Assembly: GCA_964019415.1 (NCBI GenBank)
Contig: OZ025871.1
Coordinates: 4,680,129 to 4,744,128 of the forward strand
Source: Ianthella basta
Taxonomy: Eukaryota; Porifera; Demospongiae; Verongiida; Ianthellidae
DNA: 64,000 nt
Direction of reading: 5' to 3'
The notes beneath the pieces were generated by a model. The model searched no databases, was not told the origin of the DNA, and saw only the letters and a program-made list of their open reading frames with translations. Of the stretch, positions 985-31,879 are shown piece by piece; within the stretch, counting starts at the first letter, position 1, and each line of letters starts with the position of its first letter. The position numbers were made by a program, and so were the translations under genes.

Positions 985-3942
985 TTACATGGTGGAGGCT
1001 GAGGATACAATAAAGTCTAATTCTGACTGAGCAAAATGGGGAATTACAGAGTGAGTATCTCGGATCTCTCTAATTAGATGACCCACAGCAACATGATCGG
1101 TGGAATAAGATTTACAATGAGAAGGACCAAACATACAGTTGTACCCTATAAAACCTGAATTACATACTAAAGAACTTTCATGAAAAACAGAACGAATGAA
1201 ACTAGATGAGTGAGATAATGCAGTGGAAAGTAGTCTGATAAATCTGAAATAAATGATGTTGTAAATGCTTTTAGTAAATCCAACAGCATGGGCAATAGAC
1301 GTATGGCAATTGTGTGGGAGATTCCAAATTCGTCTGATAACATTGTTAAACGACACATGAAGAGATCGGATGTCTGGGGCATCGAGCCTCCACAATGCGC
1401 ACCCATACAGTGAAAGACAGTATGCATTGAATAGTTTCATCTTTGTCTCCGGATTACACCCCTTGAATCGAAACAGGACAGAGTTAGCCTGGCGGATAAA
1501 TGCCATTGATTTTAAATGAATATCCAGCTTATCAGACAAGTCATACTGCAAAGTATTCCCAAGGTGAACGACTGAATCAACCATAGGCAGGCAGTGGCCA
1601 CAGAGTGAGAAGCGGGTATGATCAGAACCTGCAGTACGTCTAAAACATATAAGTTGAGTCTTATCAGCATTGAATTGAATCCCATGAGCCTGAGCATATT
1701 GTTCACATAGGGCAAGCATCTTTCTAAGGGCATCTGGGGATGGAGCAAGAATGGTTAGATCATCGGCATAGCAAAAAGCCCCGGAGAAGTGATCCTCCCA
1801 GTAACAGCCACGACCACTAGTACGAAGTGAATCTAGCAGGCCATCAAGATAAATTGTGAACAATATTGGGCTAAGGACACCGCCTTGGCGAACCCCATTG
1901 GAGACCTCAAAGTGGTCAGAGGATTTACCCAACCATCGAACACACAATTTCTGAGACTTGTACCACTGCAATAACAGACGTACAATAGGCTTGGGCATTC
2001 TTCTTTCAAGCAATTTCGAAAACAGGATGCCGTGGTCAACTGTGTCAAAGGCTTTTGAGGCATCAATCAAGCAAGCATACACTTTAGAACCTTTATTCAA
2101 GTAGCGATTGATAACAGATTTCATGACACCAGTACAAAGGGTAGTAGAAAAGCCAGATTTGAAGCCAAATTGTAAATCACTCGTGATAAAGAATTCATTC
2201 CAGGTAATCAGAATGGACCACTCTAGGACTTTGCTTAGGGAGGAAGCAAGGGCTATTCCACGATAGTTTGCAGAGTGGGAAGGATCTTTAGAGCCCTTTG
2301 GAATAGGCTGAATGGTGGCATCTCGCAGTGCAGTTGGCATGAAGCCATGTCTCAGTAGTGTTGTAAACAGACGAGCCAGAAACTGATGTAATGAGGCAGG
2401 TGCGTTCAGAATATGGTCTGAAGCCAATGTGTCACCACCAATCTTACCATGCCTAAGCTTCCCAATGGCCTCATGGATTGTATCAGGTGATATAGAAATG
2501 TGCTCAATCTCTGCTGAAGTTAGAGCTGAATTAAGATTATCCAGCAGTTCCTCAGCGGCGGAAGAGTCTGTGGAGTTGTACAGTTGTTTAAAACTATTGG
2601 CAAACAGATTGGCAATATTGTCAGACCCAGTAACACTATCAACAACTGGAGATGGAGTAGCTTTGCTGTTACCAAAGTGTCGATGCACTTCAGACCAGAA
2701 ACCACGATTGGGATCTTTGAGCAACGACTCAGCCAATTTTGTACGTTTGATCTGATCTTGTCTTCTCCTGACACGTCGTACAGCGTATTTGTATCTGCGG
2801 TGGTAATGCTTTTTAAGCTGAAACAGAACACCAGCAGAAGGGGAACCGGCCTCAAGCCACAGCTTATGCCACCACTGGCTAGCCTGTAGTTCAGGTTTGA
2901 CAAACTGTGACCACCCAGCAATGCGAGGTCGTTTGCCAGGGCCTTTGCCTGGGATTGAGCAGTTCCCAGCAACTTTAAGGCACTTAACAAGCTGATCACA
3001 CACCTGCTCAAGCTGTTGTTGATGAGCTGTGCAGGCTGGGTCACAACAGGTGATAATGGCATCATCCAACATCATGTTCAGAGACTCAAGCATGTGCTCA
3101 ACTGTAGTCTGGTACTTGTCAATGTGATCAATAGTGGCTCTGTACCAGGCCCTCGTGGTTGGTTCAGGGACTGTAGAAGATGTATGGTCAGCTACAGTGC
3201 ATGGCAAGTCCAGATAGAAGACTAAAGGATTATGATCAGATAAATTCCTGCCATCCTTGATTGCATGAACATTGCTGACTAATGGGAGAAAACAGCTAGA
3301 GACAGCTACATGATCAATCCATGATTTGGACCCATTATGACCCATATATGTAAAACTAACCTCATTTGCATAATTCAGATCTGCAAGAGAGAGGTCCAAC
3401 TCCGTAAGAAAAGATTGTACAATGTCCGTAAAGCTGCATGGTCGCCGAGTGTCCATGTTCCAGTCTCCAGCAATCACTAGAACATCATGTGATACTGTAG
3501 AGATAAGACCACACAGTTCCCCAAGTGTGTCTTTGAGTTGTTCATTGGCAGCATCAGAGCGATAGTCAGTTGGCAGGTAGACATTTACTAAAAGACAGTT
3601 GCAATTGCGGAGGCCAATCTTGATAGCACAATATCGGTAAGATGACGTTTTAACTTGCTTAATAGAGTTAATTAAGCATTGACGATAAAGAATAGCGCAG
3701 CCTCCAGAAGGACGCCCATGTTGCAGTACAGAGTTGTCAAAACCAGATATAGCATGAGTGACAAAACCATCAAAACAGAGTTTATCAAGCTCAGAATCTG
3801 AGAGCCAGTGTTCTTGTAACAGGACAATATCGGAAGAATCAAGAAGAACAGGTAGGTATGAGAGACCGTTATTATATCCATGGCAGTTAAATGACACTAT
3901 TGAGAGTTTCTTTTGTACAAACATCGCACAGTCATCAGTCAT
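985..3942 (-). CDS. LINE ORF2: AP endonuclease plus reverse transcriptase
   Basis: The 985-residue protein has an N-terminal apurinic-type endonuclease, with SIVSFNCHG near residue 14, QEHW at 43-46, GDWN at 159-162 and SDHNPL at 235-240. A reverse transcriptase follows, with NYRGIAL at 559, DASKAFDTVDH at 627, NGVRQGG at 682 and the catalytic YADD at 725-728. These are the standard parts for target-primed reverse transcription: nicking of the target, then cDNA synthesis from the nick. All key residues are present and there is no internal stop. Its start codon overlaps the ORF1 stop in an ATGA arrangement at 3939-3942, which suggests coupled termination and reinitiation. Confidence 0.93.
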   Translation of the reverse strand: MTDDCAMFVQKKLSIVSFNCHGYNNGLSYLPVLLDSSDIVLLQEHWLSDSELDKLCFDGFVTHAISGFDNSVLQHGRPSGGCAILYRQCLINSIKQVKTSSYRYCAIKIGLRNCNCLLVNVYLPTDYRSDAANEQLKDTLGELCGLISTVSHDVLVIAGDWNMDTRRPCSFTDIVQSFLTELDLSLADLNYANEVSFTYMGHNGSKSWIDHVAVSSCFLPLVSNVHAIKDGRNLSDHNPLVFYLDLPCTVADHTSSTVPEPTTRAWYRATIDHIDKYQTTVEHMLESLNMMLDDAIITCCDPACTAHQQQLEQVCDQLVKCLKVAGNCSIPGKGPGKRPRIAGWSQFVKPELQASQWWHKLWLEAGSPSAGVLFQLKKHYHRRYKYAVRRVRRRQDQIKRTKLAESLLKDPNRGFWSEVHRHFGNSKATPSPVVDSVTGSDNIANLFANSFKQLYNSTDSSAAEELLDNLNSALTSAEIEHISISPDTIHEAIGKLRHGKIGGDTLASDHILNAPASLHQFLARLFTTLLRHGFMPTALRDATIQPIPKGSKDPSHSANYRGIALASSLSKVLEWSILITWNEFFITSDLQFGFKSGFSTTLCTGVMKSVINRYLNKGSKVYACLIDASKAFDTVDHGILFSKLLERRMPKPIVRLLLQWYKSQKLCVRWLGKSSDHFEVSNGVRQGGVLSPILFTIYLDGLLDSLRTSGRGCYWEDHFSGAFCYADDLTILAPSPDALRKMLALCEQYAQAHGIQFNADKTQLICFRRTAGSDHTRFSLCGHCLPMVDSVVHLGNTLQYDLSDKLDIHLKSMAFIRQANSVLFRFKGCNPETKMKLFNAYCLSLYGCALWRLDAPDIRSLHVSFNNVIRRIWNLPHNCHTSIAHAVGFTKSIYNIIYFRFIRLLSTALSHSSSFIRSVFHESSLVCNSGFIGYNCMFGPSHCKSYSTDHVAVGHLIREIRDTHSVIPHFAQSELDFIVSSASTM

Positions 3943-4877
3943 TGCGAATCGGACAAAGGGCTACTAGCTGGTGTTTTCCGTGCCAAATATGCGTCTCTGC
4001 GTTTTTTGCGTTCATCTATTGAAAGGTCTGGCTGCAAAAAATACCTTTCCATTCCATTGATGCTCGACAGCCGCTTTTTGCCAGCGAGGATAAGTCGCCT
4101 GTCCCACGGACAGTTGAGCTTGATGAGAATAGGTCTGGGTTGGGATGGTTCAGATGTGCACGAAGAATGAGTGCTTGGCGCTGAGCGGTTCTTTTCAGAG
4201 ACCTTGTTGGACTGTTGTTTTCCTGTCTGCTGGGGTCTCTTTAACTGTTTGCCCAGTCTGAATGTGTCCTTGACAGCAATGTGGCTACCAGCGACAGCCT
4301 GCAGAACATCCGAGACAACTGAAAGATCTTTGTCTTCAGGAATGCCAAAGAGAATAACATTGCTTCTGCGATCGTAGGTGTCAGGAGCTTGCCTTGGGGC
4401 CGAATTACTACGCGAATTTGTATTGGGCCCATTCTCAGACACAGAGGGAGCAGGGAAGGGGAGTTGAAGACGCTTGTCAATACCCTCGAGACGAGAGCAG
4501 ACATCTGCGCGTAAGGCGCGAATATCCTCAGCCACTTGCTCAGTGCCACGCAGTGGGAGAAGCTGTGGCATCTGGAGGAGGTCCTCCGCAGAACAAACGA
4601 CCTCCGGTAGACTAGCATCGCTGTCTAGCGCATCAAAAGCCTCGATGATATCATCAAGGTCAGCCAGTTCCTGAGAGCGCGTGGACGAGCTTCGCCTTAC
4701 TTTCTTCTCCAGCTGTAATCTCGCCAGATCAGTGCTACAATCTCTCCACAGAATGTCCTTTGCAGCCCGAATTGAGCTACCATCATACTTACTCAGGATC
4801 TGGTTCCGCATTGACTCATAGTCAGCGCGTTGGCGAAAAGCTTTGAGATAGGCCAACAATCCATTGGCGACCGCCAT
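3939..4877 (-). CDS. LINE ORF1: RNA-binding nucleic-acid chaperone-type protein
   Basis: This 312-residue protein has an acidic N-terminal half and a helical stretch with coiled-coil potential at about 112-138. It then has an RRM-like block with SNVILFGIPEDK at 172-183 and DTFRLGK at 204-210, and a C-terminal block with RPILIKL at 248-254. This is the usual ORF1 layout in CR1/L2-type LINEs, where the protein binds the element RNA. No CCHC zinc knuckle is visible. The start codon lies inside an AAGATGGCGG word only about 13 bases from the 5' end of the element. Confidence 0.85.
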   Translation of the reverse strand: MAVANGLLAYLKAFRQRADYESMRNQILSKYDGSSIRAAKDILWRDCSTDLARLQLEKKVRRSSSTRSQELADLDDIIEAFDALDSDASLPEVVCSAEDLLQMPQLLPLRGTEQVAEDIRALRADVCSRLEGIDKRLQLPFPAPSVSENGPNTNSRSNSAPRQAPDTYDRRSNVILFGIPEDKDLSVVSDVLQAVAGSHIAVKDTFRLGKQLKRPQQTGKQQSNKVSEKNRSAPSTHSSCTSEPSQPRPILIKLNCPWDRRLILAGKKRLSSINGMERYFLQPDLSIDERKKRRDAYLARKTPASSPLSDSQ

Positions 4878-4894
4878 CTTGTTGCGCGCCCATT

Positions 4895-5340
4895 GTATTA
4901 TTGTGGATATGTATGGCTGTGAAGAAATGAAAGTACCTTATCAGAGGCAATGTTAGTGGTACTGCTGGTTTGAGGTATGGAACTGTCATGCAATGTCTCA
5001 ATCGGCCAATAGCACAAGTCATACATACGCAATGTCATAGCACAACATAACAAGTGTATAAGAATTCCTTAAGAATCAAAAGGGTTTTAGGAATGGCCAG
5101 CAGAAAAAGCATAGAAACAAGCAACAGTAACTCAACACCATGATGAACCATGGAAAGACCCATGAAATAACAGCTATAGCTAGCTACATGCCTTTTAGCT
5201 ATTATAGCGACGTAGCTATTATGGTACTAACTATCTTATTAAGACTGCATAAAGTCGGCGAATGTATATAATCTATATATGCTGGCACCAGTTGTATAGC
5301 AATAAATGAGAGTATGTGCAAGGTATTTATAATTATGTGC
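4895..5340 (+). other. Intergenic stretch between the upstream paralogue and locus A
   Basis: The first 200 bases match 12550-12620 and 13150-13270 (GAAGTACCTTAT, CTGCTGGTTTGAGG), continuing the duplicated flank broken by the LINE. The rest is AT-rich with GCTAGCTA words. No coding region was seen. Confidence 0.6.
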
Positions 5341-5960: not shown

Positions 5961-6229
5961 ATCCTCCAGTTCAGGCCGTATGCCCATCTCTGCCCAGCAG
6001 TGGTGCGTGTCTGTTGGGCTGTTCAACTGCAGTCGAATGAGGTGGCTGTTGAAAGGAGGAGGAGCGAAGATGACAGCTCCTCCCTCGTCCTCCAGGCCCA
6101 ACACGCATGCGGTGAAGACAGGGCTCCTTCCACTTCTTTACCTGCTCATGTTAGCCTGTGCAATGCTTCCCCGACTCCTCCTCATTCAGAGTGGGGACGT
6201 GGAGCTCAACCCTGGACCAGTTGAGACAG
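5961..6229 (+). CDS. Locus A first coding exon: signal-like leader ending in a 2A-type recoding motif
   Basis: The acceptor CTGTCATAG is followed by the start ATG at 5980, chosen because locus B has the same MPIS...QW.V.VGL beginning. Residues 49-69 are strongly hydrophobic (signal or membrane type). They run straight into SGDVELNPGP, with DVELNPGP at residues 73-80 (6196-6219). The D(V/I)ExNPGP consensus causes ribosomes to skip the Gly-Pro bond, releasing the upstream peptide while translation continues. In such leaders, failure to skip leaves the signal attached, which gives two fates for one mRNA. The exon ends in phase 1 at CAG before GTGAAT. No CARD or NACHT exon is seen downstream in this locus. 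Confidence 0.82.
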
Positions 6230-7024: not shown

Positions 7025-7664
7025 TTATTGCAAGAAGCAAACGACAAAGAATATATTTCCTCCAAAACTTCGAAAAGTTGAAATGAAAAGTCTAAAATGT
7101 TTATGAATTTTAGAAGATTTACAGTAGTCCTCTGTCCTACTTTCAGCCTATGCACTGTAGCCAGTCCTTGCGCAATGAATATCAGTACCGTGCAGTCTAT
7201 GTAGGATGGTGGTTGTTTGCTTGCTGTAAAACAAGAAAAAAGTAGCACTACTACCGTATAGGGTTGAAAACTGGTAATAAAGGCTACCCATGAGGAAGTG
7301 TCGATTGTACATTACACTGGACCAACCTTACTTCCAAGAGAACGTGTGTGCTCCCACAGAAAACGACCTCGACACTTTCTGTGTTTTGTCTTCTTATTCT
7401 TCTTCTCTAACAGCAGTAGTTCTCCTTGTAAGGTGGCACACATTCAACAGCTGACATGTGTCAGATTGGGTCAGAGTGCATGGCTGGTTTAGTTGTATCT
7501 CAAACATTATTCCACACTCTTCACTCGTCAATTCCTCATTCATTAATTCATTTAGTGTGACTTGGTTGTTTGTATCAGTTCCTGATGCTTTAATAGTGTC
7601 AGTTAAGCTAAATGGATGTGCACAGCTTTATGTACCTCTCTTTCTACTGCCTTGTATTAAACAG

Positions 7665-8451
7665 GGCACCAGTCTAGTCCCAACCACACCCACTGCTGCC
7701 CACCTAAGCACTGGACAGTTGTCAACAACATTTCCAGCCATCTTGTTTGCCCAACACTCACTCCTATCCCAACCTGTCTTCTCCATGGCGATGACCAGTC
7801 AAGCACTGCCAACTGTTTACACCACTACTCGTGCTACTGTTGCTCCTGAGATGCACAGTCAAGGCAGACTAGGACACCACAGCATGCACCATCCCGAGGT
7901 GGTGTGGGGACAGCATCAAATGCAGCAGTTAGCAGCCACACAGTATCAACAGCAGCAGCAGATGTCTACCAATGAGGCGGGGCCTACTGGCTCCTCCCCC
8001 TCCAATCCCAGTCCCTACTGCAGCTCCTACAGAATTGATTGTCCAGTGACTGGCATGCCATGGCCACAGGGTGTGCCATCAGCCCCTTCTTTGGCACAGG
8101 CACATACACAAGTACAATATGCCAACCTACTTCAGCCACAGCAGATGTTGTTCAACCAATGGTATGGCATGATGCTGCAGGGAGCCATGCTGGGTCTTCA
8201 CCCTTCTACCATGATGACCTTGGAGCAGTACCGGGCCTACCAGACTGCACTGCAGGGCACTCAGGTGCAGCAGTTGAGGCAGATGGAGCAGACGGCACAG
8301 CAGCCCACCACTCCTGAGGTGGGTGTAGCGCAGCAGGCAATGGCACACCCGACACCTCCCCACCTCACGTCACTACATGACTCCTCTGTGAGACAGACCC
8401 CCTGCCAGTCAGAGAGGAGCCAATTGTCTGCAGTGGACCCTCCCTTACAAG
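7665..8451 (+). CDS. Locus A Gln/Pro-rich tail exon
   Basis: A strong acceptor (TCTTTCTACTGCC...AAACAG) opens 262 codons rich in Gln, Pro, Thr, Met and His, including a QYQQQQQM tract. The last third (PPHLTSLHDSSVRQTPCQS to DPPLQ) matches the locus B exon at 52413-52524. It ends at a phase-1 donor, CAAG before GTGCAG, exactly as in locus B. It therefore seems to be a longer version of the same tail exon. The frame stays open upstream to 7458, so an earlier phase-1 acceptor (for example after 7578) cannot be excluded. Low-complexity composition suggests a flexible or adaptor-binding tail; function is unknown. Confidence 0.6.
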
Positions 8452-9304
8452 GTGCAGTGCAGTGGTTGGGCATATGTGTTGAGGCTTTGAACTACTGAGG
8501 GCACCACTGAAGCAAAGTGCATGTCTTTGTGGACATTGCTTCAGTGACACTGTCTCTAACACACCAACCAGTTACACATACAACACTACAGGACAGTCAT
8601 TTGTATAGCAACAAAATGTTGTTTATTGGAAATGATGTGTTTACAGTATGAGCTTCTTCAAACTGACCAACAGGTGTTCTCACTGTTGTGGCACATGTTG
8701 TGTTGATATAGTGAACTGCATGGGTACAACTACTATAGACTGGACAGGCAGTAGTGGAGCAGTTTGTCTAACCATGAGCCCTCTGTACTTGGATGTGATT
8801 GACATATTTACTCATCAATGGATGGTCTGCCGTGGTGATGATCAGTTTTCAGAAAATTCACATAATTTGTTGAACAAAATGTACTGTACATAGTAATCTA
8901 CTGTGTTAAGTTTCATTTCAGCTGTCAGTGGACAATAGCTACATTTTAATGGTAAATTTCAGAATGTTCTAGTATAATGCTCTACATGTGTAGAGTGCTG
9001 TATGCTGTAATGGGGAGTGCCATCTTCTATGCACAAGAGAGTGGTGGGAGGCTCTGTCATCCAGGACCTACCCAGGCCTGCCACCATTGTGTCATGTGTC
9101 ATGTTTGCTGTATGTTCCCCCCCCCCTGCATGCAGGCAGCAAAAAGCCAAACGGTGTGCTACAGAAGGTACTCCTTTTTTGGCAAAGAAGGGGAGAGACA
9201 ACTCCTAATCTGAGATTTGTAAATGGATGCACACACATATATAAGTATGCTGCTCCTGCTTGAGTGAACACGCACGTGCACACACACGCACGCACACACA
9301 CGCA

Positions 9305-14875: not shown

Positions 14876-14925
14876 GTGAGTATTTCGTTAATACTGTACA
14901 TAGCTAGCTAGCTAGCTAGGTAAAT

Positions 14926-17900
14926 AGGGGGGGGGGGGGCGGGGCGGAAAAATGGCTGCCCTCCCCAAGTAAGTATCTCCTGAATTTCCCCTGGCTATTG
15001 GCGAACCGCGCGGTGCATCCTTGATGGCACCAGCTGCGGAGGCTACGTATAGGCAGCGGAGACACTGTGGCAGAGGGAAGCGCTCGATGGACGCAGTTGT
15101 ACGAAGAAAGGCCAGCCGGGCAGCCTGGAGGGCGGCAGCTGGTAGCTGGAATAGGCCGCGGTCCTGGAGCGAGAAGCGTGCACACCTTCAAACGTGTACC
15201 ACAGCGAAGGAGATCCTGGCTCAGGTGGGTGACGTCCCTGAGCGTCGCGCAATTCCAACAGCGCCGGTCGAGAGTGGTTATGGAAGAAAGCCTAAAGTGT
15301 TTTGTCCAAGAATCGTCACCCACATCGCGACTTACAACGTTCGCACTCTAAAGGCCAAGTGGAGACAGCAAGAGCTAGTTGGATTTCTAGAGAAGAAGAG
15401 AATTGTTGTGTGTGCTATCCAAGAACACAGGATTTGTCATTCTAACAGCAGTAGTCCAAGCTCCTACACTAGAGTTTTGCATTTACCAGGCGGATGGAGG
15501 TTAATTACTCACACTGCGGATGATAGTGGTTCAGGAGGTATAGGGTTTATGGTGTCTCCAATAGCCTTCAAATGTCTTGATAGAGTAGAATACAAGTCAG
15601 ATAGAGTCATGCGACTCCAGTTTTCTGGCCACACTAAAGGAGCTCCTAGGACTCATCTGGTTTGTGCCTATGCCCCTACCAATGTAGCTGACTCGGCTAC
15701 TAAAGATCTCTTCTACTCACAGCTACATCAGACCCTAGATCCCTTACCTAAGAGAGACCGTCTCTTTGTTCTTGGTGATATGAATGCACGACTAGACTCC
15801 CGTTTCTGTAAGTTCCCAATACACTCAAGTGCCTCCGACAATGAATAACGAATGGCTGAGTTTATGGAGGAGCAGGGTCTATTCTCTGCCCAGTGTGCCA
15901 AGGATAAACCTCGCAGACAGTGGTACACCCATTGTGGACCACAAGGATTTTAATCCAGAATCGACCATTCCCTCACAAGACGTAAGTTTGCTAGCTCTGT
16001 ACTTGACTGCCAACTATACCGTGTGGTTGCTCCAGCATCAGACCATCGACTAATGAAAATTAGAGTGACCATGAAGTTAGCTACTCCAAAGAAGACCAAC
16101 AGGGTGCCCTCCTTAGATTATGCAAGGTTGAAGGAGGCCCCCATTGCTGAGTTAGTGGAGTCCGATGTTTGTGCTGCCACTGGGGATACACCATCTTATG
16201 AGCTATTTGTTGCTGCTGCCAAAACTGCATGTGAAACTCATCTTTCAGTCAAACCACAATTTGTACGCTCCAAGCCTTGGTTAGACACTGACATCATCAC
16301 AGCGCGTGATCTGGTAGCGGAGGCTCAAAGAACATACAAGGAGGTGAGAAGTGATGACTCAAGGCAAAAGATGGCTGATGCAACAAAATCTCTAGCACAA
16401 CTGTATGTAGACAAAGAGGAGGTGTTCTACGCAAGTATGGCCAGTGAGGTGGAGCAGGCTAGCAAGGATGGAAAGCATAGTGCTGCATGGAAAGTGATTG
16501 ATCGAATGACAGGGAGGAAGTGTAGACAAGTTTGTAGCATTGCAGCAGACTCTCAGCAGGACAGATTGACTCTGTGGCGTGACCACTTCATGCAGCTTTT
16601 AGCATCTAAACCACCAGATGTTGCTCTGCCAGTGCTGCAAGTGCATGAGGGTATGCTGCCTATTGATGAGGGTTCCATCTCACTAAATGAAATAGCGACT
16701 GCCGCCTCACAGTTGAAGACAGGAAAGGCCTGTGGCATGGACTCTATTCCACCTGAGCTGCTTAAGCTCACTGGCATACACGAGATCCTGTTGCCAGTAC
16801 TGAATCAAGCATTTGAGACTGGAGTGGTGCCTGATGAATGGAAGGTGTCTGGCATCATTCCCATCTTCAAGAAGGGGGATGCCTCAGTGTGTGCAAACTA
16901 TCGGGGTATTGCACTCATGTCACTTGCTGCTAAACTGTACAACAGGATATTGCTCAACCGTATCCAACCACATGTTGAACCCTTGCTGCGACCCAATCAG
17001 AATGGGTTTCGTGTAGGCAGATCTACTGTCCAACATATCCTAGCCCTACGGCGAATCATTGAAGAGTGTACGGTGAGGCAGGAATGCCAGTGTGTGGTTA
17101 CATTCATTGACTTTTCAAAAGCATTTGACTCCATCTCGAGAACCAGAATGGAAGAAGTCCTGTACAACTACGGTCTCCCCACCAAGATAGTAACTGCAGT
17201 AATGTCGATGTACTCAGGAACAGCCGCACGAGTGGTGACTGCAGATGGTTGCAGTGCAGACTTTCAGGTGGAAGCAGGTGTCCTACAAGGTGATACACTG
17301 GCCCCCTACCTGTTTGTCATTGTTGTGGACTATGTCCTCAGAGCTGCTATTCCAGATGACAGTGTTGGATTCATGATCCAAAAGCGCCTATCGCGACGAC
17401 ACCCAGCCAAATATGTGACAGATTTGGACTTCGCAGATGACATCGCCCTCCTGTCTGGCACCATGGCCAACGCACAGACCCTACTCACAGCAGTTGAGGA
17501 GAATGCGGCTGCTGTTGGCTTGCACATCAACATGAAGAAGACTGAGTACATCAGAATAGGTGACTTTTCTGGCGACACTCACCCTACACTGAGAGTGAGT
17601 GATGGGGAAATTGCTGAGGTAGCTGATTTCAGGTACCTTGGCAGCTGGATTATGTCATCAAACAAGGACTTTGTGGTACGCCGTGCATGTGCATACGAAG
17701 CAGCAAACAAATTGTGGAGGGTGTGGAAGTCTGGGTGCAGCCGTAACACTAAGATCAGAGTATTCAAAGCCACAGTAGAGAGTGTTCTGCTTTATGGAGC
17801 AGAAACCTGGACCTTGACTGAGCAGCTGACATCGAGAATCTGTGGCACCTACTCTAACTTGCTGCGCAAAGCCCTGAATGTGCACTGGAGAGATCGCATC

Positions 17901-18306
17901 ACTAATGCAGAGCTGTACGGAGACCTACCACGAGCAGATGACATCATACGAGACCGGCGCCTACATTTTGTTGGGCATGCTGCTCGCTGCATCAAAGACA
18001 GGTACCAACCAGTGGCAGACCTAGTATTCTGGCAGGGCTCAGGTCCTATGCGAAGGGGGCAGGGAAACAGAAGGACATTCCTCAAAACAATCATTAGTGA
18101 TCTGGGAGGACATATGACTGCTGCAGAAATCTCAAGATGTGCTGCTGGCAGAGACGAATGGAGGAAGCGAATCAACTAGCTACATAGGCCATGCAACTAC
18201 CAACTTACTGATATTGCACAACTTTCATTGGACATGTGTACACTATAGCTTCTTGTATGTAGCCCCGGTGCTGTAATAGGCCGACGTATGTATGTATGTA
18301 TGTATG
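14926..18306 (+). mobile_element. RTE-type LINE inserted in intron 1 of locus B
   Basis: The element starts with a G-run and AAAAATGGCTGCC and ends with a (TATG)n tail. It is flanked by the 9-base duplication TAGGTAAAT (14917-14925 and 18307-18315). The uninterrupted site is present in locus A near 5556 (CCAGGTAAATCGACC). Its length of 3.4 kb is normal for RTE elements. The coding region has two in-frame stop codons (15846 and 15951) but no frameshift that I could find, so it is a young, inactive copy. Confidence 0.9.
15021..18179 (+). pseudogene. RTE LINE polyprotein: endonuclease plus reverse transcriptase, two stops
   Basis: A single frame runs from about 15021 to 18179, broken by TAA at 15846-15848 and TAA at 15951-15953. 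The endonuclease part has ATYNVRTL, IQEHRIC, GDMNAR and, after the stops, SDHRLM. The reverse transcriptase has NYRGIALMS, FSKAFDS, AGVLQGDTLAPYLF and the catalytic FADD. The C-terminal part has LLYGAETWTLT and VGHAAR, as in RTE proteins. A tiny upstream frame (MAALPK, from 14952) precedes it. Confidence 0.9.
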
Positions 18307-18309
18307 TAG

Positions 18310-19198: not shown

Positions 19199-19618
19199 GT
19201 GTCATGCCTATTTCAAATGAGCAGTGGCGTGTGGCTGTAGGACTGTGGGTTGCCCGCATCCAGCGGACACTCATCATTAGGAGAGGAGTGAAGCGAGCAT
19301 CATCCAGTCAGGAAGGTGCATCTTCTCCATCAGGTCAATCACACAGTGGGGAAAAGAAGTCCATGCTAAAGAGTAAAGGAAGAAAGAAACACAAAGAAGA
19401 GTCTTTGGGCAATCAGGTTATCACAGCTGATGACTTGTACAGTGGCTTGTGTGATCTTACACAAAACAGCAAGTGCAGAGACAGCACAGACAGGAGTCGG
19501 TTAAGTCCTTTGCTGGAGCTGTTAGAGTGCACCAAATGGACTTCACTTCTTGTTGTCATAATGATCCTCCTATTCCTGAGTGGTGACATAGAAACTAATC
19601 CTGGACCCACGGAGAGAG
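19199..19618 (+). CDS. Locus B first coding exon: leader ending in a 2A-type recoding motif
   Basis: The acceptor CTTTCTGTGCAG is followed by ATG at 19204, whose MPIS.EQWRVAVGLW start matches locus A. A long basic, Ser/Lys-rich stretch follows (KSKGRKKHKEES). Residues 112-125 are hydrophobic (WTSLLVVIMILLFL) and lead into SGDIETNPGP, with DIETNPGP at residues 128-135 (19585-19608). This is a full 2A-like consensus. The exon ends in phase 1 at GAGAG before GTAGGT and joins the CARD exon in frame. The expected outcome is skipping at Gly-Pro, releasing the leader from the receptor, or read-through that keeps it attached and redirects the protein. Related 2A leaders are known on sea-urchin and some other invertebrate NLR proteins. 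Confidence 0.88.
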
Positions 19619-19955
19619 GTAGGTAGTTGTGGTTCAATGAAGCATTGTGTCCTAGTACAGGTCATGTCAGCAGTCACTGGTTGTGCTTCTTATTTGACTG
19701 TAATCTTGGGCAGGACTCGCTGCTAGATGGAGATTTGTTTATTGTTAATGGACAGTTTACACAAGTCATGAGGCAGTTATTGCGCAGCAGTAATACAGGT
19801 CACGTTAGCAGTCACTGTGCTGCTTGCTTGACTGTAATGTTAGCTGGAGTCCAGACTAGCTGTTAGTTGCTGCTTTGTGACATAGAGCTACTGAGGATGA
19901 CAGGGTTGAGGACTTTGTTTGTCATCTTTTATAATTATTATGTGCTATTGGCATA

Positions 19956-20583
19956 GCGTAAGCTGCCAATTATTGACCACTTTTCATACCTTGGAGCGTA
20001 ACTTGGGCGCCGAAGGTTGCAGAAGCTTGATTCTTGCGGTGAAAGATAGCTGAACAACAGGTTGTCCTGTCCAGCCATTTCAACTATAACTACATTCATT
20101 GCCTAAGTGCTCGCCATTTCCGTGGACCCGGTGATAGACCAATTATCGACCAAGCGTACAATTATTGACCGCACATACAAATGCCTATACCAATTATTGA
20201 CTGATACACAGAAATCGTTTAGTAACTTTGCTTCACAATAACTCAGCAATCTAGGATTGACCAGGAATGCAGAGCAAGGTGTGCCACGTTGTAAAGCAGA
20301 TTTCGAGAGGAAGGCTGGTACCGTTCGCAAGTTATAATGCGTTCAGACAAGATGCGTACACGTTTACTCTTTGCACTGCTACGATTTTCTTGTAAATAAA
20401 TATTTCCCTCTCTTAATTAAAGACGACGGCTAATGTTTACCAGAGTCTTCAGGAAGCCTTCTATCAATGCGCAAAGGTCCCTCACTCTGTTTACAGTTCC
20501 GTAAAAGTCTATTAACTATTCGTGCATGTTTCAGGATACTACCGGTCGATAATAGGTACTGGTCGATAATTGGCAGGTTACGC
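19956..20583. mobile_element. TIR element with TA target duplication and internal 13-mer repeats
   Basis: Inverted ends GCGTAAGCTGCCAATTATTG and CGATAATTGGCAGGTTACGC are flanked by TA. Inside, the word CCAATTATYGACC or close variants occurs about six times in both orientations, clustered towards the ends. There is no long frame. It is probably a non-autonomous Tc1/mariner-like element with repeated transposase-binding sites. Confidence 0.7.
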
Positions 20584-20589
20584 TACTCT

Positions 20590-21930
20590 CACACAGAGGT
20601 GAGAATAACAGATGTGTCCTGGCTATTTATTGAAGTATGCCAATTGCGGGCATGTGGTACTGTCCTATAAATGATATGTAAACAGCTAATTCAGTAACAG
20701 TGAATCAGTCTCAGGTGACCAGACCGTACTGACAACAGGATACTATTTGCTGTTTGCTATAGGGTACTATTAGCCATTGTCTGTTGTGAGCACTGAAGGT
20801 GAATGTTCAGTGCTGTCTTGATCGGGTTATCTCCCATGTACCCCCCTTAGTGTGGGGTGTGTCCAAAGTCACATGGCAATGTGCTAAACCATAGTAGCTA
20901 CAATGCATACGTGCTAACTATCCTGATTTAGGCAGAAAATGCCTTACATCAGGCAGATGTCCTTCTGTCAGTTCTCTGTGTGTTGCCTTTGAAGAGTTCT
21001 GTGCTCAGCTTTTTTGGCCAAAGTCCCACAGGATACTGACTGGTTGGGATTTATGTACCATAGCGGATCCAAACTTTAGAGAAATGTGTTTGAATGCTCA
21101 TTTAATTTAGCCTACTCAGTTGGACCGTGTAATTGGCAGAATAGGTAGTCGATTGTAAAGCATTCATGTGACTGTAGACATTGAAAAATTTAATATCTAC
21201 AATTCTACGTAATAACTACCCACTGTTATGTATATATGACATCATGAAAATTTTTGTGAATATAAGCTGATGTGAATTTGTCTGCACCAATAGTACCACA
21301 TCTTAATTAAAAGGCATACACAGTATGTGTGGTTGTTAATCACTGAGTATTGAGCCTAGATAGGGCAGAGAAGATCAAGATGATAACACTGATTTACTAT
21401 AAGCTTCACAAAGTGCATTTGTTGGATCCTACTACACTTCAGTGATCTAGCCAGAATATTCTTAGTGGGTTTCTGGCTTGGGCTTGTGTGCTAGTTTGGA
21501 GTAATGACGTATGTTGCATCACCAAACCACCTAGCACATACATGCAAGGTGAACATTTGGGAAGTTGAATTTGTGAGAAAGTGATGTAAAGGTGGATGGA
21601 TGCTGTCCTCTATAGTGTATCACCATCAGAAATGCTTGTAATAGTACAAAACCATTCTCTAGTATGACTTTGCAGTACTTCTCTATACGTACTAGTTGTT
21701 GCCATTGTAGCAATTTGATAGAGGTTTTCTACACCGCTGTACTTTGTTGTTGCATGTACTTGATCAGTGCATTAGTTGTCCCATAACTAGGTCAGTGTAA
21801 TACTTGATACTGTAGAGGCTTATTGTTGTAGGCATGTCGGATTAGGTTCACATAATATTTTAGTAGTTATTGCCCAGTGTAAGTGTTGTGAAAATTGAAA
21901 CACACATCCCCCTTCCCCCTGTCCTGCACT
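20590..21930 (+). other. Intron 2 of locus B
   Basis: AT-rich sequence without a convincing exon or repeat. Confidence 0.4.
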
Positions 21931-21934
21931 ACAG

Positions 21935-22261
21935 ACGGCAGAAGCCATCCCATGAGTCATTGGAATGATGCTGCCTTAGTTTCTTTAAGAGACAAGCTCA
22001 AATTGAATGTGCAATTGAGCATGGGTCTCAGTGATAAACTGGAAAAGCCAGCAGGTGGCTTTATGAGTCGCCATGAAGCTCAGACGATAATGCAACTCCC
22101 TAACAGCAGGGAACAGATTAACGGAGTCATTGAGACCCTACGTGGTAAAGGAGATGAAGACTTTCAGACATTCTGTGTGATGCTGCGAGAATGCAATTAT
22201 GCTGTATGGGCAGATGAGCTGGAGAAGGAGGCAGAGCGCTTCAAGGCAGGAGGAGGAAAAG
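21935..22261 (+). CDS. Locus B CARD exon
   Basis: A pyrimidine-rich acceptor (CCTGTCCTGCACTACAG) opens this exon in phase 1, directly continuing the 2A exon. The product has MSHWNDAALVSLRDKLKLN near its start, followed by a helical block with SREQINGVIETLRGKG, FQTFCVMLRECNYA and WADELEKEAERF. The pattern matches a caspase-recruitment domain of the death-fold superfamily. Such domains make homotypic contacts that pass NLR activation to downstream signalling proteins. It ends in phase 1 before GTATTT. The call rests on the motif pattern; a profile search would separate CARD from other death-fold members. Confidence 0.75.
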
Positions 22262-25511: not shown

Positions 25512-25570
25512 TAGGAACTGGAGAACCTGATGCAGAGTCAACCCCATCACAGAGTGAGAATAGCAAGGAG
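25512..25570 (+). CDS. Locus B linker exon between CARD and NACHT
   Basis: The acceptor GCATTCTGCAG and the donor GAG before GTTGGT bound 59 bases. Phase 1 in and phase 0 out are exactly what joins the CARD exon to the NACHT exon. The product is an acidic linker, VGTGEPDAESTPSQSENSKE. The donor is weak, but phase agreement on both sides supports the exon. Confidence 0.55.
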
Positions 25571-25583: not shown

Positions 25584-25636
<53 letters not shown>

Positions 25637-25645
25637 TGTGCGTGT

Positions 25646-25728
<83 letters not shown>

Positions 25729-27133: not shown

Positions 27134-28800
27134 CTGCAGCAGTTCTCTAAGAGAATGCAAGCTCATTATGCAAGGATGAAAGTTGTAGATGACAAGTGGC
27201 GTAAAAGTCAGTCAATGGAGTTTGTCAAATTGGCCCTGTCTCGCTTTAAACTGGATTTTGAAGATGAACACAAGAAGTTTGTTGAAGCCATTTCTGACCC
27301 AGAAGGAGTTGACAAAGTGTATACAGTAGTCAATAACGTTAAGATTAAATATGAAGACATACCAGCCATGGTAAAGAGGTTGAAGCTTGTTGTCATCAGT
27401 GGTGCTCCCGGTGTGGGTAAGAGCACACTGGCCAAGAAACTATGCCAAGATATATGCAATGACATGAGCAAATATGGATATGATTTGTTGTTATTGGTTG
27501 AACTGAGAGACTTGATTAAATTTGCGGGCCTTGTTGAACCTTTTGAGCTTGACCACATGTTACAGTTGTTCACTAAAACTGTGCACGAGGCAGTTCAGCT
27601 TGCTAGGGGGGTGCAGGCAAGTGGAGGTAAAGGTGTTCTCCTCCTTCTTGACGGTTATGATGAGCTACTACAGAAACTGCGTGAGGCTCCTTTCTTCCTT
27701 GACCTTCTCACACACTCCCCAAAATCCTCACTTCCAGAGTGCGATATTGTGCTCACATCTCGCTCTATCCTCACTAGTCAGATATATCACCTTTTCCACA
27801 AGTCTACTACAGCTGGTGGTATCACTAATATTGAAGTACTTGGATTTACTACGGCACAGATTAAGCACTATGCTCAACGATATTTTGACGAAGAAGGCAA
27901 ACCACAACTTTGTTCCCCATTTTTGGCAAAGATAGAGAAGCGGTGCCTCAGATAAAGAGCCTGTGCAGCATCCCCATGGTATTATCAATTATTTGTCGTG
28001 TATACCTTTCAGAAGAAGACTTACCTCCAACATTGACTGAAGCCTATCATGACTTTGTGCTTAAGAAAGTACTTCTGAATTCAAATTTATTGGGTGTTGA
28101 ATCACTCTTAAAGCTTCCTCCAAGCCATGATTTCTACCGACTATGTGAAATTGCATTTGCATGCATCGTGGAGCAGAAAGTTATCTTTACATCAGCTGAA
28201 CTGAATGATCTTTCAACAAGATATTGGTATATTGATATAGGTGTGGTTTATTAACAGCTCGTCCTGTGGATAAGTTAGAATGCATAGTGGCAGCAGTGGA
28301 AAGCTTCTTCTTTATTCATTTAACAGTCCAAGAGCTGCTCAGTGCTGTCCACACAGCGAGGCAGGATATTGCAGTTCAGAAGGAAATCTGGGAAAAGTAC
28401 CTTGGACAGCCCCACATGGCCCAAGTGTGGAAATTCTTTTGTGGAATAGCCAAACTGCATAACTTTGAAGCTCTTGAACTGGCTTCTAAACTTGAAGATG
28501 AAGAACTGCTGGTGCAGTCTCTTTTTGAGTCACAGAACAGCAATTTGATGGAGCATGTCATTCCTACACGTTTCGGTCCTATTCCAGTGGTCAAGATTGT
28601 GTCAGTCTCCAGCTCCATTGCTCATGGTTACTGTTTTCAGCATCATAGTAATTTAAAAGGTTTTGAAATTGTAGGACGACTGAATGTTAATATTCAAATC
28701 AGCAATTTCCTACGGCCAGTGATGAGTGCCAATGGTGCTGTCTTGGAGCACTTGGCAATCAGAAATGTTCGTTCAAAATATAAATTGAAAATTCAGTTAG
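27134..28800 (+). CDS. Locus B NACHT ATPase exon (frame broken twice)
   Basis: This large exon carries the nucleotide-binding oligomerisation domain of an NLR receptor. A helical N-terminal part (LQQFSKRMQAHYARMK) leads to Walker A, GAPGVGKST (27401), about residue 90 of the exon. Walker B, LLLLDGYDEL, follows (Asp at 27650, about residue 173), then a sensor-type CDIVLTSRS. After the ATPase come NLR winged-helix and superhelical blocks (SLCSIPMVLSIICRVY, and FFFIHLTVQELLSA at about 28308). The frame changes at about 27905-27935 and again at about 28220-28245, and both shifts occur within conserved family blocks. The gene is therefore either recently disabled or affected by sequence errors. 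The 3' end of the exon was not resolved. Confidence 0.85.
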
Positions 28801-29910: not shown

Positions 29911-30172
29911 GCACTAAACACTGGGTTTCTGGACAAGTTGGCCTCAGCATTGGCACAGAACAAGACAATGAAAGTGCTGAAACTGACTGGTGCTGATGAG
30001 CGTGATTTTCGTTTACAGTCAAAGATAAAGGAAGGACAAGCTAAAGGAGACCTCACTCAGTGTACGGTTATGAAGCATTTTATTGAGCATCTCCTACTGG
30101 GAGTCTCTCTGAATACGACCTTGGAGAGGGTGGAGCTGGACTTTCCTCCTTGGTTGTCAGGTCACATCAAGT
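29911..30172 (+). CDS. Leucine-rich-type repeat exon B1
   Basis: Phase 0 in and 1 out, 87 codons. The product starts ALNTGFLDKLASALAQNKTM and ends in GVSLNTTLERVELDFPPW. The pattern L..L...LAQN.TM..L.L then N.TL..(V/L).L.FPP is that of leucine-rich repeats and matches B2 and B3. It has an extra charged insert of about 15 residues in the middle. Donor GTGAGT. Confidence 0.72.
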
Positions 30173-31879
30173 GTGAGTTATTGTTGCAGTGTTGGACCTC
30201 TTCTATATCTGCTGTTGCTAATGGCAGCTATTTGGCTATTGTGCTGTTGTACTTTGATGGCAATGCACTGCTTGCTGCACAGAACTTTAGTTTTCAGAAT
30301 CTTCTGTACCCTTTACTTCGAGATAGAGAAGAGTCATTGACTTTCTATGCCTTTGGTACACAGCATGCTTGAACAGCACCCTTTACTGAGAATCGATATG
30401 CCTCAAGCATGGTATAGATCTAGGTGTCATGCATGGTTGCATCACAGCCATCGCTGTTTCTAAATCTGTTGATCACGCCAGTTGCCTCACACCATGGTCT
30501 ATTTCGTTGAGCTTTGCCCTAAATTGGATTTATGCCTGGGTTCTAAGTCCAACTGGGCTCTAACTAAGGCATGGCATTTGTGCTCTGGTATAGCCAGGCT
30601 GGACTATTTATAAGTGAAACACTATTAGTAAATAATGGTACAGTGAAACCTGTTGAAGATGGTCACTCTCTAAACCCCGAATAGCACTAATACATTACAA
30701 TCTACCTCTGTCCAGCAGCCACCAATATATATAGGTTAAATTTGATCTGGCCCATAGGTGGCTGTTGTAGGTTTCCTTGTATATACATATGCCATGCTCA
30801 GTTCCACTGCACATATCTCACCTGTCACTGTGCATGGCTATATGTATACAATGCACGGGGTGCCCAGCTTACTTGTTCCATTGCCGATTAGAGTGGAGCA
30901 ACAAATTGACTGCGAGCCCTGGCAGAGAACTAGCCAGCTTTCGATGACCCTGCACATAAAATTGGTGTAGTAAAGTTGTCTGCCAGTGAGTAGCTGACTT
31001 GCTGCATCTGCTGCTGACCTGTAGAAACCTGCTTATGGGGTAGCAAGCTGTACTGATGCCCATTTTGACAAACAGCCACACACTGTTCAGAGACAGATAC
31101 GTACTAATGTCTTAGTCAGACAGTGCAGACCGCTTCCAATAATGATTGGACATGTTCTGACACTAATTTTTCAGCCTGATCAGCAATTAAATGTTCAGTT
31201 ACACTTACCTTTTGGTTTTAAGCATTGACAAATTTTCCAAGTGTCAGATTAATGATTGTAGCTATGTAATTGAACATTTGATTTAAAGCAAAAGTACAAC
31301 CAACTTCTGTTAATCTGTCTTGGATTCAGACTTGTAATTATAGGTATAATTGTTCACGAAACAACTCTTGCTTTAAATTGGTACTCCTTGCAGGCTGGAT
31401 ACCATGGGAGAACCATGAGATACCTGTCCTGTTTGTTCTTGTCACACCTCAGCAATGTCACATGACTGGTGTTTTCAATAATAGTTCTGCTGCTATTTTC
31501 TCGAATGTCAAAATAGTGTCTTGATGCTTCAAGGGTGGATCCAGGGGTGTTTCCAAGGTTTCCAGAAACTGGTCAGATTATCTTTGGCTAGGATTTTCAA
31601 CTATCAGTCATATAGCTAACTAGCTAACCAATGGTAGACCCACTCACTCTCCTTACCTCTGACTACAATTCACAGAATATAACCAACCAAGATAGCCACT
31701 CACTCTCTTTACCTTTGACTAGTAGTTTCAACCATCTACAGAACTAAACAACTGCATTGAAGCCATGTATTCATTGCCTATATTAAACGATCCTCCATTT
31801 TGAAATGATGACATCATCATTTCTGTAATGTCATATGCAATTGTGAAAGTAACTAATAACAGTTTCCTGTAGGGCTTGT

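Follow-up and report, generated by a model that had tools for sequence, protein, structure and literature searches.

A 64,000-nucleotide stretch of the Ianthella basta genome (C4:4680129-4744128, where C4 is contig OZ025871.1 of a 209-Mb assembly; hereafter the window) contains an exon which, with high probability, encodes a 2A (StopGo) leader belonging to a family of CARD-NACHT receptors. Skipping at its end would produce a free leader and a cytosolic receptor. Coordinates are given in window numbering unless a contig is named, and the features are collected in Table 1.

The leader, MPISNEQW...LLVVIMILLFLSGDIETNPGP, comprises 135 codons (19204 to 19608) and is referred to as type A. The first-pass annotation had recognized that a hydrophobic segment leads into a complete 2A motif, and this is indeed the case: SGDIETNPGP corresponds to the C-terminal D(V/I)ExNPGP core of 2A/StopGo elements, and LLVVIMILLFL, directly adjoining it on the 5' side, provides the hydrophobic, leucine-rich context of such elements. 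From the position of the motif, the skipped bond is predicted between codons 19603-19605 and 19606-19608, with 134 residues before the skip point. In the KD19 hydropathy profile, by which hydrophobicity was judged, the maximum lies 9 residues from this C terminus, and the region N-terminal to the hydrophobic segment carries a net charge of +8. Because this segment spans residues 107-125 of 134, its predicted role is that of a signal-anchor, either C-terminal (tail-type) or internal, and not that of a classical N-terminal signal peptide.

The exon ends in phase 1 with the donor AG/GTAGGT at 19618/19619, and a type-A exon is phase 1 in and phase 1 out if used internally. On the 5' side, its acceptor CAG sits 3' of a pyrimidine-rich run; in a scan of 46 sequences, every one of the 34 type-A exons detected had a CAG exactly 5 nt before the ATG. 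Owing to this splice acceptor, the leader exon is probably not the first exon, the place it had been given in the first-pass annotation, and an exon upstream of it probably exists. The type-A start codon has a G at -3, or an A in one copy.

The 2A exon had also been proposed to join in phase to a CARD and then to a NACHT domain, and the phases match when read from the DNA. The chain of leader, CARD, linker and NACHT exons is stop-free in frame into the NACHT exon, as far as 27955, and, spliced in this way, would place the 2A element at the N terminus of a NACHT receptor or close to it, as in the sea urchin type. The NACHT domain, with its P-loop, is recognized by PF05729 (E-value 2.9e-17; 63.4 bits vs. 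a cut-off of 26.7). Single-sequence searches with the CARD exon were weak, with troponin C among the matches; hence, the domain was assigned by profile, model and fold search. The window CARD alone gave a Pfam E-value of 0.0018, under the Pfam cut-off, and 42 of 43 aligned CARD-exon sequences matched PF00619 at E <=0.1 (best 7.7e-7). A profile search of the PDB with the exon retrieved Apaf-1 entries only (seven, best E 0.006). Its AlphaFold2 model has a mean pLDDT (predicted local distance difference test score) of 80.4 and compares with the Apaf-1 CARD at a TM (template modeling) score of 0.75 and a root-mean-square deviation of 1.7 Å. The CARDs of Apaf-1 and NOD1 were among the best PDB matches of the model, and no fold match had an E-value <0.001. 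Judged by profile and predicted fold, the exon is a CARD.

A strict 2A pattern of 26 bases occurs at 355 sites in the genome, compared with 0 for the reversed pattern; the motif of the leader is therefore not due to chance. A genome similarity search with the type-A leader yielded at least 108 matches, fragments and internal exons included. The listed rows behind the counts are at least 108 for this leader, 150 for the CARD, 148 for the NACHT exon and 37 for a second leader, type C. Positions were compared for 86 type-A rows (some of them fragments), 80 of the 150 listed CARD rows, including all those on C4 above 3.9 Mb, and 145 of the 148 listed NACHT rows (three on C95 were excluded). The listing of the 355 2A sites covers the first 100; on contig C2, 56 of its 67 2A rows were used, the 11 beyond 4.3 Mb (8 on the plus and 3 on the minus strand) being dropped.

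The 2A leaders accompany the receptor genes. For 78 of the 86 type-A rows, a listed NACHT exon with the same orientation follows no more than 60 kb downstream. On C2, the nearest upstream same-strand feature is a 2A motif for 49 of 51 listed NACHT exons, at a median distance of 7.0 kb and always within 15.2 kb; label shuffling gave a mean of 26.7 and a maximum of 36 in 10,000 shuffles. On C4 above 3.9 Mb, ignoring features more than 60 kb from a NACHT exon, at least one leader is present in 56 of 84 NACHT-terminated units and at least two in 23, and a leader lies 3' of the CARD in none of the 46 CARD-bearing units. No receptor cluster on C4 or C2 mixes strands: its listed type-A, CARD and NACHT rows all have the same orientation. 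In the short stretches read, no 2A was seen in the 2.6 kb upstream of one C8 CARD (L091) or within ~1.5 kb of eight NACHT exons of the C8 and C5 clusters (L001-L008). Possibly, only some receptor clades have 2A leaders.

Within the leader, constraint is strongest on the 2A core. For 33 distinct type-A leaders, chosen for having NPGP, the ratio of nonsynonymous to synonymous substitution rates (dN/dS) is 0.48 for the whole leader, 0.24 for the first 20 codons, 0.36 for the last 36 residues, 0.18 for the last 18 codons and 0.08 for the 8-codon core. In this NPGP-chosen set, the core residues S, G, D, E, N, P, G and P are invariant, the second position is I, V or T, the x position varies, and the core codons vary synonymously. 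Sets that were not chosen for the motif agree with this. Among loci selected by leader similarity only, the strict motif is kept in 29 of 30 (L009-L038), or 27 of 28 without the window copy and its duplicate on contig C51, and in 6 of 7 similarity-chosen type-A loci from other clusters; public homologues, down to ~50% identity, have it in 49 of 58 cases. With a family spread over the genome and a core under such constraint, the motif is likely to be a functional skip signal.

The N-terminal block of the leader (MPIS..QW.V.VGL), searched as a 42-residue query, matched type-A and, weakly, type-C leaders only, among the 108 matches listed. This pattern suggests that the leader peptide itself may be functional. 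Synonymous differences are low in the first 20 codons (0.09 vs. 0.20 overall), and gene conversion or a constraint at the DNA level may add to their conservation.

Table 1. Features of the receptor gene region in the window; a slash marks the splice junction or the predicted skip point.
Feature	Position	Strand	Remarks
Second 2A leader exon, type C	5975..6229	+	ATG at 5980; SGDVELNPGP at 6190-6219; phase-1 donor /GTGAAT; 5' end guessed from AG
2A leader exon, type A	19199..19618	+	CAG acceptor before 19199; ATG at 19204; donor at 19619
N-terminal block of the leader, MPISNEQWRVAVGLWVARIQR	19204..19266	+	From dN/dS and similarity search
Hydrophobic segment, leader residues 107-125	19522..19578	+	KD19 maximum 1.94; directly 5' of the 2A core
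2A/StopGo core SGDIETNPG/P (predicted skip point)	19579..19608	+	Motif definition from PMC4981915
CARD exon (by profile and model), phase 1 to phase 1	21935..22261	+	327 bases; acceptor CTACAG; donor AAG/GTATTT
Linker exon, phase 1 to phase 0	25512..25570	+	59 bases; GT microsatellite 3' in the intron
NACHT exon, open part	27134..27955	+	Starts in phase 0; P-loop GAPGVGKS at 27401

In the proposed mechanism, with the exons spliced as drawn, the ribosome would make the leader from the mRNA, i.e., the conserved N-terminal block, a basic middle part and the hydrophobic segment, and at NPG/P the Gly-Pro bond would not be formed in most passes. The first product would be the released leader; its hydrophobic segment would lie close to the C terminus, and the leader would probably be inserted into a membrane: a released type-A or type-C leader would resemble a tail-anchored protein. 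The second product would be a cytosolic CARD-NACHT receptor beginning with proline. After a failed skip, the receptor would stay joined to the hydrophobic segment, which would then be an internal signal-anchor drawing it to the endoplasmic reticulum or membrane.

If the leader were instead an ordinary membrane anchor or signal segment with a non-skipping NPGP, the receptor would always be membrane-bound. The hydropathy maxima (KD19, 1.9-2.1 in type-A and type-C leaders) would suit such an anchor. However, an anchor leaves unexplained the constant DxExNPGP with a free x, which is the pattern required for skipping, and the core is under stronger constraint than the last 36 residues as a whole. 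Moreover, a comparable sea urchin leader was estimated at ~80% recoding in the available text of PMC4981915. The anchor explanation is considered improbable.

A retrotransposon relic, foreign to the receptor genes, is the other possible source of such exons. Odon et al. reportedly described 2A sequences in APE-type non-LTR (long terminal repeat) retrotransposons in 2013. These share the motif with the receptor leaders, and elements of such appearance occur in this genome: read by eye, five of the seven 2A loci examined on C1 (L039-L041, L043 and L047) resemble open reading frames (ORFs) of PHD/endonuclease-type non-LTR elements, and an element with a reverse transcriptase separates the two window 2A exons. 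The receptor leaders, in contrast, track the receptor genes in place and strand, and none was found to be linked to a reverse transcriptase or an endonuclease. Their phase-1 donors are conserved, too. A retrotransposon origin of the leader exon was rejected because the listed N-terminal-block matches are all type-A or type-C leaders, because leader, CARD and NACHT rows share their strand in each cluster, and because the insert in the window is absent from the corresponding stretch of the paralogue L090; that the 2A exons are such relics is very hard to credit. The genome seems to hold both kinds of 2A, that of receptors and that of retrotransposons, as has likewise been reported for the sea urchin in the part of PMC4981915 available.

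Several points weigh against the 2A leader interpretation. The exon chain was read from DNA alone, and skipping of the window leader is predicted. The window NACHT frame stops at 27953-27955. For eight of the 86 leader rows, a downstream NACHT exon is missing from the list, and 28 of the 84 C4 units are without a leader of the types searched. Degraded cores occur in this genome (L032 reads DTE and L071 reads NPDP), as well as in 6 of the 58 public homologues, while 3 more are without that part. Leucine-rich repeats (LRRs) were not identified in the window, neither by Pfam in the ORF at 29911-30369 nor by a simple pattern beyond 24 kb, and the exons 3' of the NACHT exon are short and unassigned; the label NLR (NOD-like receptor) hence rests on the CARD and NACHT domains. 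Finally, the first search of public proteins yields no independent splice evidence, as the lengths and coverage of the 42 proteins found fit single NACHT exons.

The frame break concerns the window copy rather than the family. A full exon chain had been claimed for the window: its phases do match, but the NACHT frame is broken, and the chain is open only in paralogues, e.g., L057, which carries the same exons with matching phases. The NACHT frame is open for 273 residues in the window and C51 copies vs. 564-565 in L055-L056 and 565 codons in L057; other close paralogues are likewise open. Relative to L057, the window NACHT has two frame-breaking length differences, at ~27.94 and ~28.24 kb, and is otherwise 97.7% identical; homology to the intact paralogue runs on to 28826 in broken frames. 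The 58-kb contig C51 bears a minus-strand copy of the gene region, 100% identical over the leader, CARD and NACHT query stretches, and represents a haplotype left unplaced or else a duplicate created in assembly. As C51 shows the same 273-codon limit, a simple base-calling slip is less likely to be behind the break; C51 may duplicate the same assembly. From these comparisons, the family is intact, and the window copy is probably a member whose frame was broken recently.

The type-C leader of the window (MPISAQQW...SGDVELNPGP) has 80 residues (5980-6219) and lies 13 kb upstream of the type-A leader. Its hydrophobic maximum is at residues 51-69, 10 residues from the end. Genome-wide, 33 of the at least 37 type-C matches are strong, one of those being partial. 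The paralogue L090 conserves both leaders and parts of the intervening sequence. Between the two window leaders lies a Q-rich open frame of unassigned kind (7455-8498), part of which is missing from L090; a role as partner of the type-C leader is not supported, as L090 keeps both leaders.

A third type, B, is found on C2; its leaders are ~30 codons long, counted from the likely ATG. The six non-A sites read there (L062-L067) are short type-B or type-B-like leaders. Receptors are densely arrayed in the regions C2:1.05-2.2 and 3.55-3.95 Mb, where 23 rows of type-A leaders are mixed with other 2A sites. By their sequences, neighbouring C2 receptors seem to use different leader types.

Some receptors are preceded by more than one 2A exon. 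In a minus-strand unit ending at the NACHT exon C4:8912223, the CARD is preceded by a single type-A leader plus four additional exons of 2A type. The core is degraded in one of these four; the other three are intact, with the acceptor CCTCAG, a length of 342-348 bases and phase 1 in and out, ending in SGDVETNPGPVER. Two of the three are without any methionine, and the third has a late one. Lacking a usable start, the methionine-less exons depend for their translation on a coding exon further upstream; the leader found there is itself a 2A exon.

These exons favour serial use of the leaders; for the C and A leaders, the sequence leaves both serial and separate use. We put forward only tentatively, at somewhat under an even chance, that the 2A exons are serial, interchangeable phase 1-1 cassettes and that mRNAs run through several of them, giving two to five leader peptides per NLR transcript. 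For the window, the order would be C leader (5980), 2A, A leader (19204), 2A, CARD-NACHT. The leaders may equally be alternative first exons, one per mRNA, chosen through separate promoters or exons of the 5' untranslated region, an explanation that concerns the combination of leaders and not skipping itself, and to which we would give slightly less than one chance in two. In its favour, type-A and type-C leaders each carry their own ATG, with the -3 base mentioned above in type A, and compact C-CARD-NACHT units are present, in which C serves as sole leader. For all 11 type-C rows at C4 3.9-9 Mb (one partial), the next listed feature, type C aside, is a type-A leader 6-25 kb downstream, an arrangement that would suit a choice between the two. 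Against alternative first exons stand the type-A acceptor before the ATG, in frame with the phase-1 donors in 34 of 34 exons, and the methionine-poor internal exons of the C4:8912223 unit, for which a sensible start is impossible.

Internal 2A exons of L088/L089 (C4:8918731-8926444) start with a death-domain-like stretch (SSKPTLAELDEFIV..IADGWEQVVLHLQ), which is also seen at the beginning of further frames, many of them longer, on both C2 and C4. Pfam gave no match for this stretch, and the label is our own. In sequence, they look like chimeric exons in which the phase was kept. If serial use is true, two to five released leaders, some with a death-fold-like start, would precede the cytosolic CARD-NACHT receptor. 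A cellular gene would then make several proteins from one frame, as a multi-2A polyprotein, of which the known examples have so far been viral.

The parallel with sea urchin drawn in the first-pass annotation is borne out by the available text of Roulston et al. 2016 (PMC4981915), in which the SpNLR2A leaders of Strongylocentrotus purpuratus skip and act as signals in cells. As far as that text describes them, both systems are large families of NACHT receptors whose N terminus, or the region close to it, carries a hydrophobic run followed by a D(V/I)ExNPGP core, and the 30-codon type-B leaders are close in length to the 26-residue urchin leaders. On the contrary, the window leader, with 135 codons, is far longer than these, has a conserved N-terminal block and bears its hydrophobic segment at the C-terminal end. 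The sponge genes further differ from what is described there in having three types of leader and, before one receptor, repeated phase 1-1 2A exons, some without a usable start. Skipping was measured for urchin leaders, while it is predicted from sequence here. Overall, the 2A leader system on these CARD-NACHT receptors is real and probably functional, and varies on that of the sea urchin.

For Dysidea avara and 10 other sponge genomes, CARD/DEATH-NACHT families have been described that are large and expanded in a species-specific way (PMC12909245, seen in part), and the CARD-NACHT family found here is likewise large. The words skipping, StopGo and signal peptide are absent from the main text of that paper as available, and 2A leaders are undescribed in it. 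A review names NLRs as a cellular home of 2A (PMC11512398, in the part available), whereas a structural paper of 2026 regards 2A as a viral device whose cellular use is never or only rarely seen (PMC12846837, likewise in part). Among the openly licensed papers that the literature searches listed, no 2A leaders on NLRs were found described outside sea urchin, an earlier report elsewhere being possible; the one match for sponge, NLR and 2A-like, PMC5890393, is unrelated in the portion available. Apparently new are the long leaders with a conserved start, the three leader types and the repeated phase 1-1 2A cassettes before one receptor. If more than 100 immune-receptor exons are true 2A leaders, skipping would be a routine step of receptor production, and they would form a natural series relating skipping efficiency to the split between cytosolic and membrane-bound receptor.

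The insert between the two leader exons of the window is of the non-LTR retrotransposon type (14925-18308, plus strand), with an endonuclease-like ORF at 14973-15848 (weak Pfam match) and a reverse transcriptase ORF at 15954-18179. A second non-LTR element lies on the minus strand at 985-4937 and consists of a 991-residue endonuclease-reverse transcriptase ORF, preceded by an ORF of 332 residues. GT microsatellite tracts at 25586-25723 start within ~20 bases of the linker exon donor. A search of a plasmid collection gave no match. One public protein (P0049), deposited under an alphaproteobacterial metagenome-assembled genome, is a leader exon of this family and apparently represents host DNA binned with bacteria.

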